Below, one piece after another: positions 15,225-19,570 of a DNA stretch of 45,697 bases. The stretch lies in assembly GCA_025062195.1 (NCBI GenBank), contig JANXAS010000026.1:1-45697 (forward strand). Reading direction: 5' to 3'. The notes under the pieces are model-generated. The model was not told the origin of the DNA, made no database searches, and saw only the letters and a program-made list of their open reading frames with translations. A program made the translations under genes and the position numbers. Origin of the DNA: Armatimonadota bacterium. GTDB lineage: Bacteria; Armatimonadota; Fervidibacteria; Fervidibacterales; Thermosaccharophagaceae. Positions within the stretch are counted from its first letter, which is position 1. Each line of letters starts with the position of its first letter.

Positions 15225-16130
15225 ATGGGATCGGACGGATGTGCTTCGGGAGACTGCCGCATAAGGATGTTCAAACGCGAAGGCCGCCTTGCATCCTGTA
15301 ATGAAACGAAGGCATCAACACTCTGCAAGAGGTGCCTCATTGAGCGACTCACAAAGCCGATCCCGGACAAGCTCCCACACCCAATTTATTTGCACTGCGT
15401 AAAAACCAACGGACTTCAAAGCTTCACGCTAATAGAGCTTCTGGTCGTCATCACCATCATTGCTATCTTGGCAGCAATGTTGCTGCCGGTGTTTGCGCGC
15501 GCTCGTGAGAAAGCAAGGTCAGTCGCATGCTTGTCTAATTGCCGTCAGATCGGGATCGCCCTCGCAATGTATGTTCAAGATTACGACGAGGGTTTTCCGC
15601 TAACTGAGCCACACGAGTATGCTGGCTCTCATGTCCCTGTCGGTCCAGGCTGGCTAAAAAGCTGCCAACCTTATACTCGCACAACTTTACTCCATCGTTG
15701 CCCCTCTGACACAAGTTCGCTTTGGGATGATGACGACCCAACAACTCGCCCAACATCATATGGGCTGAATGGCTATTTCCCGCCAGACCACCCACCATAC
15801 TTTGGAATACGGCTCAGCCAAGTTGTTAATCCCTCTCAATGCATCATCGTCGCTGAGTTGGCTGATCAAGTCGTGGACGACCATTTTGTTCCTGCTGCTT
15901 GGGGCAATCCGACGAAGGTGCCCGAGTTTGGTCCCGGTTCTGAAGAGCACGAGGCTGAATGGGATGACGAAAATGGCGAACCTAAAAGCCTCGCAATACG
16001 AAGGCATCAAGGCGGTGCCAATTATGTGTTCGTTGATGGACATGCTAAGTGGATGCAGTTCCATCAAACATGGAGGCAAACTCCGGGCTACCCACCCAAT
16101 GTGGATTACTATGACCCGCTACACCCTTAG
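15225..16130 (+). CDS. type IV pseudopilin-like protein with H-X9-DG motif and unusually long leader
   Basis: A 301-residue protein with the prepilin core [20 protein letters not shown] at 67-86, followed by [20 protein letters not shown] and QDYDEGFP typical of the large DUF1559-like pseudopilin family. Glu71 is the conserved +5 Glu. The H-X9-DG motif is [17 protein letters not shown] near the C-terminus. Two things are odd: the leader is 66 residues with six cysteines (including CKRC), and the residue before the cleavage site is Ser66, not Gly. The ATG at 15225 has GAGGAG only 2 nt away, so the start is not certain; a TTG start (about 12-aa leader) has no ribosome site. It is followed by a second pseudopilin 11 bp later. 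Confidence 0.75.
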
Positions 16131-16141
16131 GAGGTGAGCTT

Positions 16142-16831
16142 ATGGTGCGCCGTGGCTTCACATTAATTGAGCTGTTGGTTGTGATTACAATAATTGCCAT
16201 CTTGGCAGCAATGCTGTTCCCAGTCCTGTCAAGGGCAAGGGAATCGGCAAGGAGGACGAGATGCATTTCCAACCTCAAGCAGATCGGGATGGCTATGCAG
16301 ATGTATGTTCAAGACTATGATGAACAGCTTGTGCCTTGGTCGTATCCAGATGTCCAAAGAGGAGCATGGCGAATCGGCACTTATGGTTGGCAGGAATTGA
16401 TAAAGCCTTACCTTGCGAGCCGAACATACACAAGGACGACAAACCCATCGGGGACAACAGTCTTCCAATATGAGGATCTTTTCTGGTGTCCGAGCCAGAA
16501 GGAGGAGTCACGCATGATGCTGGGGCAGGCAATTTCATATGTCTCATATGGCATCAACGGAAATGTTTCTGGCTTCGTCATCGCTTCCAACGGCAATGCA
16601 GCTCTCGTCCCGCCGCCACATATCGCCAAGATTGCCCAGCCTGGCGATGTCATGTGGGTTTGCGATTCGCCGGGGCATGTCGTTAGGCGGTCAAACTGCA
16701 GCAGCGATGTAGCGGATAGACATTTTGAGCACGCAAGTGTGGTCTTCATTGACGGGCATGTAAAATGGTTGCGAAAGGACAAAATATGTTCGGCACAGCC
16801 GCCAGAAATTTGGTGGTATGACCCACAGTAA
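16142..16831 (+). CDS. type IV pseudopilin-like protein with H-X9-DG motif
   Basis: A 229-residue protein beginning [20 protein letters not shown]: a short charged leader with Gly at -1 and Glu at +5, as prepilin peptidase needs. [20 protein letters not shown] and QDYDEQL follow. Near the C-terminus [17 protein letters not shown] has the exact His-9 residues-Asp-Gly spacing. These proteins are abundant in Planctomycetes, Verrucomicrobia and Armatimonadota and are thought to be surface-associated pseudopilins; their individual roles are unknown. The ribosome site AGGAGGTGAGCTT overlaps the stop of the previous gene, suggesting an operon. Confidence 0.9.
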
Positions 16832-16854
16832 GTCACAAGGGGGTGAGAATAAAA

Positions 16855-18102
16855 ATGCGGCTCGGAAACACAGCTAAAATGTTGTTCACCGCAGTCTTTG
16901 CACTCGCTTGCTTTAGCGCTGCCAGAGCGCACTTCCTTTGGGTTACAGTTGACAATTACAACCCGAAGGTGGGTGAGGCTGTCACTTTTCGCATCGGGCT
17001 TGGTCACGGAGATGAGTTCCCCAAAAGTGACATCTTGATTTCAACCGAACCGTTTGTGGAAATTGTCAAACCAGACGGCAAAACATTCACCGTCAAAGTT
17101 AGCCCGGATGAAGCTACAAAGGAATGGGCGGGCAAGTTTATAGCGGAGCAAAAGGGCACATATGTCATCCACACTTGGTTCTATGCGCGGCGCCGCCAAG
17201 AAACACAGGCAAAAGAGGCACCTCAGAAACGAACGGAACAAGAGGAATGGAAGCAGCTTATAAAACCGTTCACACCAAAAGAAGGCGAAGGCTTCCCTGT
17301 TTATCCGATTGGCGTAATTTCATCACCCTATGACCCCAAATTGAGGCGCCCACCACATCAAGGTCGCTACTCACATGAAGTCTGTCAAATTAAAATCCAA
17401 GATGAGTTTACAGAGGCACTTATGGGAATTGAGCGTGCGTCACATTTGATTGTGCTCTACTGGATGGACAGAGCACGCCGAGATGTCCTCGCTTCAAGGA
17501 CACCATGGAGCGATGAAACCTTTGGCGTATTCGCTACGAGGTCGCCGAGCCGCCCTAACCCGATAGGAATTTGCGTCGTTGAATTGATTGAGAGGAAGGG
17601 AAATACACTTTTCGTAAAGGGGTTGGACGCTTTTGACGGCACGCCAGTAATTGACATAAAGCCATTCTCCTTCGGCATTGATGCAGTATTGGGCAGCAGG
17701 GGACTATTTGGAGGAGAGATGCAAAGCCAACCCACCGGTTTCCATATGGTCGGTTTAGCCCTCTTGGATGTTGAGCAACCGTCAATGACTGTGCTGAGAC
17801 GACCACCACAGCTTCTTTTGCTCATGCTTGACAATTTTGCGAGGCAGAAAGTCAATTCAGTTGCACCACTTCTTGTGATGTCCGATGGTTTCCCTACAAG
17901 CACTGCTATTTACGCCACCTATCTCGGAGCGAAGCCAACCAACGGTGAAGAGTTCCCCATCAAGTTAGCAACGACCGAATTTGGGTTAGCTAACCTAAAA
18001 CTTGACCGAAGCGGCATTTGGTTAGTCGCTTGCCAGAAGGATAACGCCAGAACTACCTTAACATTCTTTGTGCGCAATAACAAAACCAAGGGGGTGCGTT
18101 GA
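16855..18102 (+). CDS. exported DUF4198 protein with inserted TsaA/TrmO-like methyltransferase domain
   Basis: A 415-residue chimera in one uninterrupted frame. The ATG at 16855 has GGGGGTGAG 7 nt upstream; an in-frame GTG lies inside that site. Residues 1-25 are a signal peptide ending in ARA before [10 protein letters not shown], where DUF4198 proteins begin. Residues 26 to about 110 match the first half of DUF4198 ([18 protein letters not shown]), a family linked to periplasmic metal uptake. Residues about 148-275 match the TsaA/TrmO (UPF0066) domain: [23 protein letters not shown] and the signature [19 protein letters not shown]. TrmO N6-methylates t6A in tRNA using SAM and is cytoplasmic. 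Residues about 330-405 look like the DUF4198 second half ([20 protein letters not shown]). It sits between two pseudopilins in a tight operon. How the domain works outside the cytoplasm, if exported, is unknown. Confidence 0.8.
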
Positions 18103-18103
18103 A

Positions 18104-18781
18104 ATGCGGCGTGGCTTTACATTGATTGAGTTGTTGGTTGTAATAACGATTTTCGCCATATTGGCGGCAATCTTGTTTCCGGTGTTTGCCCGTGCCCGTG
18201 AAAAGGCGAGGTCAACTGGGTGTATAAGCAACATGCGCCAACACGGATTAGCCTTCCAAATGTATCTCGCAGACTATGACGGCGTATACCCACCATTCCC
18301 TCAGTGGAAATCTCGCCTTGACCCATACATGAAAAACCAAGATATGTGGAAATGCCCCAGCCGCCCACAGCTGCCTTGGTATTACGGACATGGCTATAAT
18401 CTTGGCTGCCCACCAACCATAAGTGGTTGTGATAGCACTCCCGGCTTCCCAGAGAGGCACGAGGCTCAGATAGCCAACCCGGGTAACAAAATTCTGGCGC
18501 TTGAATGGGATAGGTGTAACTCCGGACCGCCCAACGGACCTTATGGGACATATCACGGTGGCGCAACAGGCTTTTGGTCTGTCTGCCGAATACACAATGA
18601 CGGTTCAAACATTCTCTTCGGCGACGGACATGTCAAATGGATGAAGCCGGAGCAGTTTCATAGCACTACATGGAAGGAAGATGGGAACGGCAATCCGCTG
18701 CCGCCGCCCGGTCAAAGCCAAATACAGGTTGTGCCCGAAAACATTTGGCGCAAGTTCTGGGACACATCACACGGCTGGTAA
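18104..18781 (+). CDS. type IV pseudopilin-like protein with H-X9-DG motif
   Basis: A 225-residue protein starting [20 protein letters not shown], with Gly at -1 and Glu at +5 of the prepilin site. [21 protein letters not shown] and [10 protein letters not shown] follow. The H-X9-DG motif is [19 protein letters not shown]. The ATG at 18104 starts just after the TGA of the chimeric gene (18100-18102), whose last codons supply the GGGGGTG ribosome site, so the genes are translationally coupled. Its last 15 bp overlap the 3' end of trmI on the other strand. Confidence 0.9.
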
Positions 18782-19570
18782 AAAGTCACCTTTCGCTAAA
18801 GTGACTTTCCTTGCAGCTATCAAGAAGGCGGTGTGAGCAACCATCCTATCCTCTGGACGAAGCCTTTCAGGGTTTGGCTTGTAATGGCGCACGAGTATCT
18901 CACAAACTTCAATGTCAACCAATGGCAGACGCTGCATCACCCTCAGCGTCTCACAAATCTGATTTGTCGTCGGAACAAGTATTCCAATTGAACCACCTGT
19001 CGCTAATGCCTCAAGAGATTGTTCAAGGTATTCCCAGGGCGTGCGCACATCAAGGAAAACAGCATCAACATCCTTCTCGTCAAACCCGCTGGCAATATCT
19101 CTCACCTTGAACTCAACGCGATGCAACAATCCGGCAAGTTCCAAGTTCCTTCTCGCCCTCTCAGTGAATTCCAAACGCCTCTCATACGAATAGACCTTAC
19201 CATCATCACCAACAGCGGAAGCAAAAAGGAGGGTTGATGCGCCACTTCCGGTGCCAGCCTCCACAACTCTGCATCCGGGAACGATGCCCAGGCGAAGGAT
19301 TAAGTAACCCATCTCCTTCGGGTATGCAATTTGCGTTTCTCGCTTTATGGCGTGCATGACAAGGTCATTTGGTGTTGGGCGAAAGGCATAGCAGCGATAG
19401 CCAAGATGCGTGCTGATAGCGCACCCGGGAGCTTTCCCGATCAATTCGCTTAGATTGATCGTCCCCTGGCTTATCGTAAACTTTCCGACGGAGACTTTCG
19501 TCACCCACTTGTTTCCGACTTCGTCAACGAGCAACACAACATCACCGTCTTGGAATGGTTGGCTATGCAC
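18767..19570 (-). CDS. trmI: tRNA (adenine-N1)-methyltransferase, TrmI family
   Basis: A 267-residue class I SAM methyltransferase. The start is a GTG at 19570 with GGAGGTGAG upstream. The N-terminal beta-rich domain ([14 protein letters not shown]) and the central segment [29 protein letters not shown] are typical of TrmI, which makes m1A58 in the T loop of tRNAs and helps thermal stability. The SAM motif I is [12 protein letters not shown]; motif II reads [10 protein letters not shown]; motif IV is [14 protein letters not shown]. The C-terminal [22 protein letters not shown] is also characteristic. It runs toward the third pseudopilin and overlaps it by 15 bp at the 3' ends. Confidence 0.93.

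Follow-up and report, generated by a model that had tools for sequence, protein, structure and literature searches.

Proteins of the TsaA (UPF0066) family are annotated wholesale as tRNA methyltransferases. In Escherichia coli TrmO (YaeB), a class VIII methyltransferase, methylation of tRNA needs a C-terminal DPRxxY domain, including its Asp and Arg (PMC4132733). Archaeal members do not have this domain, and no archaeal tRNA has been found to carry m6t6A (PMC4132733); the archaeal-type branch is without a known substrate. One member of this branch, AF0241, has a SAM-bound structure (PDB 2nv4), stands alone and carries no export signal. A second family, DUF4198, has been shown by experiment to consist of secreted Ni2+-binding proteins that use the N-terminal His and a second His as ligands (PMC12537917); IsDUF4198 (PDB 9GCB) is one such protein. 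Among fusions of TsaA to other domains, an FmdE–UPF0066 protein was noted earlier (PMC2954224).

Here we describe, from its sequence, a gene of an Armatimonadota bacterium in which the two families meet in a single frame. The gene keeps the residues of the SAM pocket and lies among pilin genes, and other TsaA proteins also carry predicted export signals. The window, that is, the whole stretch of DNA analysed, covers 45,697 nucleotides (contig JANXAS010000026.1). The DUF4198 fusion, the free-standing members with export signals and the metal-transport genes near TsaA point to a role that differs from tRNA methylation and is directly testable. If this is true, the 'TrmO' label is mistaken for many proteins, and evolution has made an extracytoplasmic binding domain out of a methyltransferase fold.

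One frame with two families

The gene is an uninterrupted frame of 415 codons on the forward strand (16855–18102) that starts at an ATG at 16855, as read directly from the sequence. The first-pass annotation had proposed that this one frame joins a signal peptide, the first part of a DUF4198 domain, an intact TsaA/TrmO domain and the rest of DUF4198, and the open frame and the Pfam and NCBIfam matches bear it out for the flanks and the insert alike. The layout is as follows.

16838..16847, forward strand: Shine–Dalgarno-like AGGGGGTGAG, preceding the ATG at 16855 (sequence read directly)
16855..18102, forward strand: whole gene, 415 aa, signal peptide, DUF4198 N-half, TsaA/TrmO domain, DUF4198 C-half (sequence, Pfam, NCBIfam)
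16855..16929, forward strand: predicted Sec signal peptide, residues 1–25, cleavage between ARA and H (sequence, hydropathy heuristic, alignment with DUF4198 relatives)
16930..17190, forward strand: DUF4198 N-half, residues 26–112, first beta-sandwich
17191..17298, forward strand: charged linker, residues 113–148 (low model confidence, no family match)
17299..17703, forward strand: TsaA/TrmO domain, residues 149–283, archaeal single-domain type (Pfam, NCBIfam, AF2, Foldseek)
17704..17808, forward strand: linker, residues 284–318 (no family match, low model confidence)
17809..18099, forward strand: DUF4198 C-half, residues 319–415

Searched with the whole protein, the Pfam DUF4198 model (PF10670) matches in two stretches with 53.3 bits, against a cut-off of 34, which places the protein in the family. 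The N-terminal flank alone scores 29.9 bits over profile positions 4–79 and the C-terminal flank 21.2 bits over positions 137–205; joined, they reach 45.8 bits, above the Pfam cut-off. The flanks match separately and together, so both belong to DUF4198, they follow the order of the profile, and the insert takes the place of profile positions of about 80–136. On this profile alignment, it comes after the first beta-sandwich of the family and before the C-terminal half.

The assembly is a draft in 170 contigs, and a false join of two genes was considered as the source of the frame. Several features speak against it: both junctions of the insert are in frame with no stop, and the two DUF4198 halves flank the insert in their proper order. 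The gene is uniform in base composition and codon use, both of which agree with the neighbouring genes, with no compositional seam along the N-terminal flank, the TsaA part and the C-terminal flank (GC 0.50, 0.49 and 0.47; GC3 0.53, 0.48 and 0.52). The synonymous preference of the insert (+0.072) falls within the range of 136-codon windows of the neighbouring genes (0.057 ± 0.026). We also found no second TrmO_N match in the genome, and thus no second TrmO copy to cause a join; the only other DUF4198 match is weak, C-terminal and within a long repeat protein. An assembly join is unlikely on these grounds, and we give an artefact next to no credence.

We rejected separate production of the TsaA part from an internal start: residues 100 to 162 include no in-frame start codon from which such a product could be expected, and no stop follows the domain. 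No structured RNA was found in the gene region. An imperfect 16-nt direct repeat (14/16; 17342–17357 and 17795–17810, 453 nt apart, both copies encoding LRRPP) lies close to the ends of the insert, not at them.

The insert and its SAM pocket

The insert matches Pfam TrmO_N (PF01980) over residues 167–276 (E = 5.6e-33, 114 bits; cut-off 26.8) and the NCBIfam TrmO equivalog TIGR00104 over residues 149–278 (146.9 bits; cut-off 93.25). Single-domain TsaA proteins make up the best matches listed for it, namely those of Archaeoglobi (58%), Desulfallas (53%) and Peptococcaceae (53%), and also its further relatives among other clostridia and methanogens. A tree places it near archaeal and clostridial TsaA, with a fork that is not resolved. 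The AF2 model has a pLDDT of 86–98 over residues of about 151–270, and Foldseek superposes it on SAM-bound AF0241 (2nv4) with a TM score of 0.91 (target-normalised). The model is confident for the TsaA part only; the DUF4198 flanks, for which a usable alignment was lacking, are modelled without confidence.

AF0241 and the insert share the same barrel (about 54% identity), the absence of a C-terminal domain and all four residues that contact SAM, the roles of which are taken from PMC4132733.

17359..17361, forward strand: Gln169, aligned with AF0241 Gln22 (SAM alpha-amino group)
17539..17541, forward strand: Arg229, aligned with AF0241 Arg82 (SAM carboxylate), invariant in the alignment
17626..17628, forward strand: Asp258, aligned with AF0241 Asp111 (SAM alpha-amino group)
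17659..17661, forward strand: Lys269, aligned with AF0241 Lys122 (SAM carboxylate, from the other subunit), invariant in the alignment

Whereas AF0241 is free-standing, the TsaA domain of the window sits inside a protein predicted to be exported. E. coli TrmO is also close, in that the insert passes its equivalog model and keeps the counterparts of its Q25, R92, D125 and K136; unlike that enzyme, the insert is predicted to be exported and lacks the DPRxxY domain, residues 284–415 being linker and DUF4198 instead. By its barrel without that domain and by its best matches, the insert is an archaeal-type single-domain TsaA (UPF0066). An active methyltransferase would also fit a wholly preserved SAM pocket. 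Methylation of tRNA, however, is not a safe inference from these residues even though the pocket is intact.

This bears on the conflict raised by the first-pass annotation, which set a cytoplasmic, SAM-dependent tRNA enzyme against an exported host protein. The conflict is real, but its tRNA premise does not hold for a domain of the archaeal type, since no member of that type has ever been shown to methylate tRNA (PMC4132733). Because the insert is of that type, the difficulty lies with the supply of SAM rather than with tRNA.

Predicted export and a pilin operon

The signal peptide was recognised by eye as Sec-like and ending in ARA, with an 11-residue hydropathy of 2.49, and its predicted cleavage site aligns with the AH[D/F]xW site of other DUF4198 genes. 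On this evidence (sequence, hydropathy heuristic and alignment) the export signal that had been proposed for the protein is upheld as a prediction, and a His directly follows it (ARA, then HFLW), as is characteristic of DUF4198. The mature N-terminus would thus be His, as in nickel-binding DUF4198. The link of the family to metals, earlier given as a general property, is published as secreted Ni binding (PMC12537917). Two residues are candidate ligands in the window protein.

16930..16932, forward strand: His26, N-terminal residue of the mature protein, candidate metal ligand in the position of His1 of Ni-binding DUF4198 (PMC12537917)
17005..17007, forward strand: His51 in GHG, candidate second metal ligand, invariant in the DUF4198 alignment

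Alignment with seven DUF4198 relatives shows W4, G25-H26-G27 and other positions (mature numbering) to be invariant, and the host protein would bind a transition metal through its new N-terminal His and the second His. It shares with IsDUF4198 the family match and the signal peptide followed by His, and the conserved His51 of its N-half may correspond to His18 of that protein; it differs in holding a whole TsaA domain between its halves and in having a metal site that is a candidate by sequence. A sequence search of solved structures returned no match to 9GCB, and a search with the joined flanks gave no hit in 249 genomes of the phylum of genome G295 or in plasmids.

The gene is flanked on both sides by DUF1559 pilin genes, of which the whole 3.4-Mb genome has 35.

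15225..16130, forward strand: DUF1559 pilin-like gene, true start probably internal (PF07596, N_methyl)
16142..16831, forward strand: DUF1559 pilin-like gene, directly upstream with a 23-nt gap (PF07596, N_methyl)
18104..18781, forward strand: DUF1559 pilin-like gene, directly downstream (PF07596, N_methyl)
18767–19570, reverse strand: TrmI/GCD14-like tRNA m1A methyltransferase gene, convergent with the pilin genes

This setting recurs. A pilin gene, recognised in relatives by an FT[LM][IV]EL motif, precedes DUF4198 on the same strand at six of the eight strong DUF4198 matches of the phylum (five of these six in one family), and the same order is found in a planctomycete; the two genes are adjacent or separated by one redoxin or DJ-1/YHS gene. 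The two matches without a pilin partner are G181 and G250, the latter with DUF4198 beside a CbiM-like gene (by eye). The window gene thus has the pilin neighbourhood that is usual for DUF4198, and the recurrence of this gene order speaks for export of the host protein. The loci L184–L190, together with 16142–18102 of the window, make up a recurrent operon of pilin and metal protein of which we found no description in the literature. Within the window no metal transporter adjoins the gene, its neighbours being the DUF1559 pilins, the TrmI-like methyltransferase and an MFS protein; the gene thus lacks the adjacent CbiM/NikM or other metal transporter that marks a Ni/Co uptake locus of the NikK type.

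Export and operon also bear on whether the protein could be a SAM-dependent methyltransferase of the cytoplasm, being retained, slowly exported or active before export. Such an enzyme would suit the four intact SAM contacts and the fact that the insert is the only TrmO-like gene of the genome. It would have to be reconciled, however, with a clear predicted signal peptide in the place typical of the family, with the pilin operon and with a frame that offers neither a start codon between residues 100 and 162, from which the TsaA part could be made separately, nor a stop behind it. The DPRxxY domain required in E. coli is missing (PMC4132733), and a TrmO match occurs in only 55 of 291 genomes of the phylum, most having none. 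We consider this reading rather improbable.

TsaA outside the cytoplasm and its metal context

Predicted export of TsaA is not confined to the window gene, because a heuristic signal scan of 199 TsaA loci, together with inspection, indicates a signal peptide or lipobox in seven of about 197 other TsaA proteins, none of which has DUF4198. Six were found by the scan (L160, L229, L112, L222, L228 and L254) and one on inspection (L236), and no other recognised domain is present in any of them. All seven keep the pocket Arg, Asp and Lys that hold the amino-acid end of SAM, and in this, as in the export signal, they resemble the window protein; they differ from it in lacking DUF4198 and in lying on other branches. 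In a tree of 197 rows, in which many forks are not resolved, L254, L228, L222, L229 and L236 form one clade (support 100), L160 pairs with L112 (support 88) and the window insert stands apart. By parsimony on this tree, export of TsaA would require at least two to four changes (L236 not counted as exported). The five-member clade has lost the Gln loop. We found no description of stand-alone exported TsaA proteins in the literature searched.

The fusion itself appeared in no other genome searched. The full protein gave hundreds of TsaA matches, none spanning both flanks, in a search of about 1,070 genomes from four phyla (291 of its own phylum and samples of 216, 281 and 277 genomes, probably of planctomycetes, Chloroflexi and Desulfobacterota, respectively). 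A scan of 85,000 species genomes with a seven-row alignment yielded no DUF4198–TsaA fusion in its 80 best TsaA loci. The architecture may be private to the lineage of the window genome. Five longer TsaA frames (L164, L175, L177, L136 and L143) were considered as DUF4198 fusions and rejected, their partners being other domains.

Metal-related genes recur near the insert's relatives. Among 92 neighbouring proteins of its 18 closest TsaA loci (up to three neighbours per side, mechanical gene calls) we counted FecCD (3), Peripla_BP_2 (2), TOBE (3), SBP_bac_11 (2), HypA (2), HypD (1) and FmdE (2); ModABC-type neighbours (SBP_bac_11, BPD_transp_1 and TOBE) and a molybdate permease recur. None of these metal families was among the top 25 families listed for 89 control proteins from the same genomes. 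At L110 (5114–8348) the TsaA gene has a ModA-like gene on one side and a ModB-like gene on the other, and at L100 (5785–8224) it precedes FecCD and its ATPase. At L269 the gene for an exported TsaA comes after one for an ABC-3 metal permease, and the lipoprotein TsaA L112 adjoins CobO, DUF169 and CGGC genes. These links to metals are associations by neighbourhood in a small sample, not proof.

The reading that we prefer, and to which we give about an even chance, is that TsaA has been reused outside the cytoplasm, the protein pairing an exported DUF4198 metal site with a TsaA pocket that binds an amino-acid-like ligand, possibly a metal chelate. On this view a pilin operon encodes a metal-binding DUF4198 protein that works outside the cytoplasm and that has taken a whole archaeal-type TsaA barrel into the linker between its halves. 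The signal peptide would be used, bringing the protein outside the cytoplasm, and the DUF4198 part would hold a transition metal by its new N-terminal His and second His. In SAM-bound AF0241 the equivalent pocket holds an alpha-amino and an alpha-carboxyl group; in the window protein the TsaA part would bind an amino-acid-like ligand outside the cytoplasm and would not methylate tRNA. Our most specific guess is that this ligand is a metal–amino-acid chelate or a metallophore of the aminobutyrate type, with the two domains capturing metal jointly. The idea of TsaA as a ligand-binding module outside the cell, put forward in the first-pass annotation, gains from the seven exported TsaA proteins and the pilin–DUF4198 order; the export remains a prediction, and the restriction of the fusion to one genome counts against our explanation.

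That restriction favours the strongest rival, a recent chance insertion: an exported DUF4198 gene would have received a TsaA gene, in frame, within its linker region and would tolerate it without a job. Insertion into a linker needs no selection, and the direct repeat at 17342 and 17795 may be a trace of the junction. Against it, the insert shows no decay, with every pocket residue kept and no stop or frameshift, and its codon use is that of the host as seen in the neighbouring genes. Chance would also leave the other exported TsaA proteins unexplained, although it need not explain them. We regard it as unlikely. An enzyme working outside the cytoplasm, on a small molecule or on pilins and with exported or scavenged SAM or another donor, would make use of the intact pocket and of the pilin neighbours as possible protein substrates. 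We know of no extracytoplasmic supply of SAM, however, and the loss of the Gln loop in the clade of L228, L229 and L254 fits binding better than methyl transfer; this alternative seems highly improbable.

Extending reuse outside the cytoplasm beyond the window protein, the TrmO-like fold may have an undescribed extracytoplasmic job, perhaps metal capture, because other bacteria are predicted to export lone TrmO-like proteins. Lipoproteins, Sec-exported forms and the DUF4198 insert could together form a class of extracytoplasmic TsaA, so far undescribed, whose SAM pocket has been turned to binding extracellular amino-acid-type metal chelates or metallophores, with the DUF4198 fusion naming the partner function, metal capture; we hold this generalisation to be possible but on balance doubtful.

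Other TsaA fusions turned up among the longer loci, to FmdE, CbiA/Fer4 and further domains. Like the window fusion, the FmdE, CbiA/Fer4, lyase and FMN-reductase-type fusions have partners often tied to metals; unlike it, they carry no recognised export signal and their partner is not DUF4198. On the Salmonella plasmid NZ_CP022016 (L070, 3630–5715), an adenylosuccinate-lyase-like domain is fused to TsaA and clusters with ThiF-like, MoaD-like, dehydrogenase and iron ABC genes, in what looks like a small-molecule biosynthesis cluster. At L071 (5022–10441) a TsaA gene lies inside or beside an ABC transporter operon dependent on a substrate-binding protein, and a 335-aa frame at L273 joins, by eye, a flavodoxin/FMN-reductase-like protein to TsaA.
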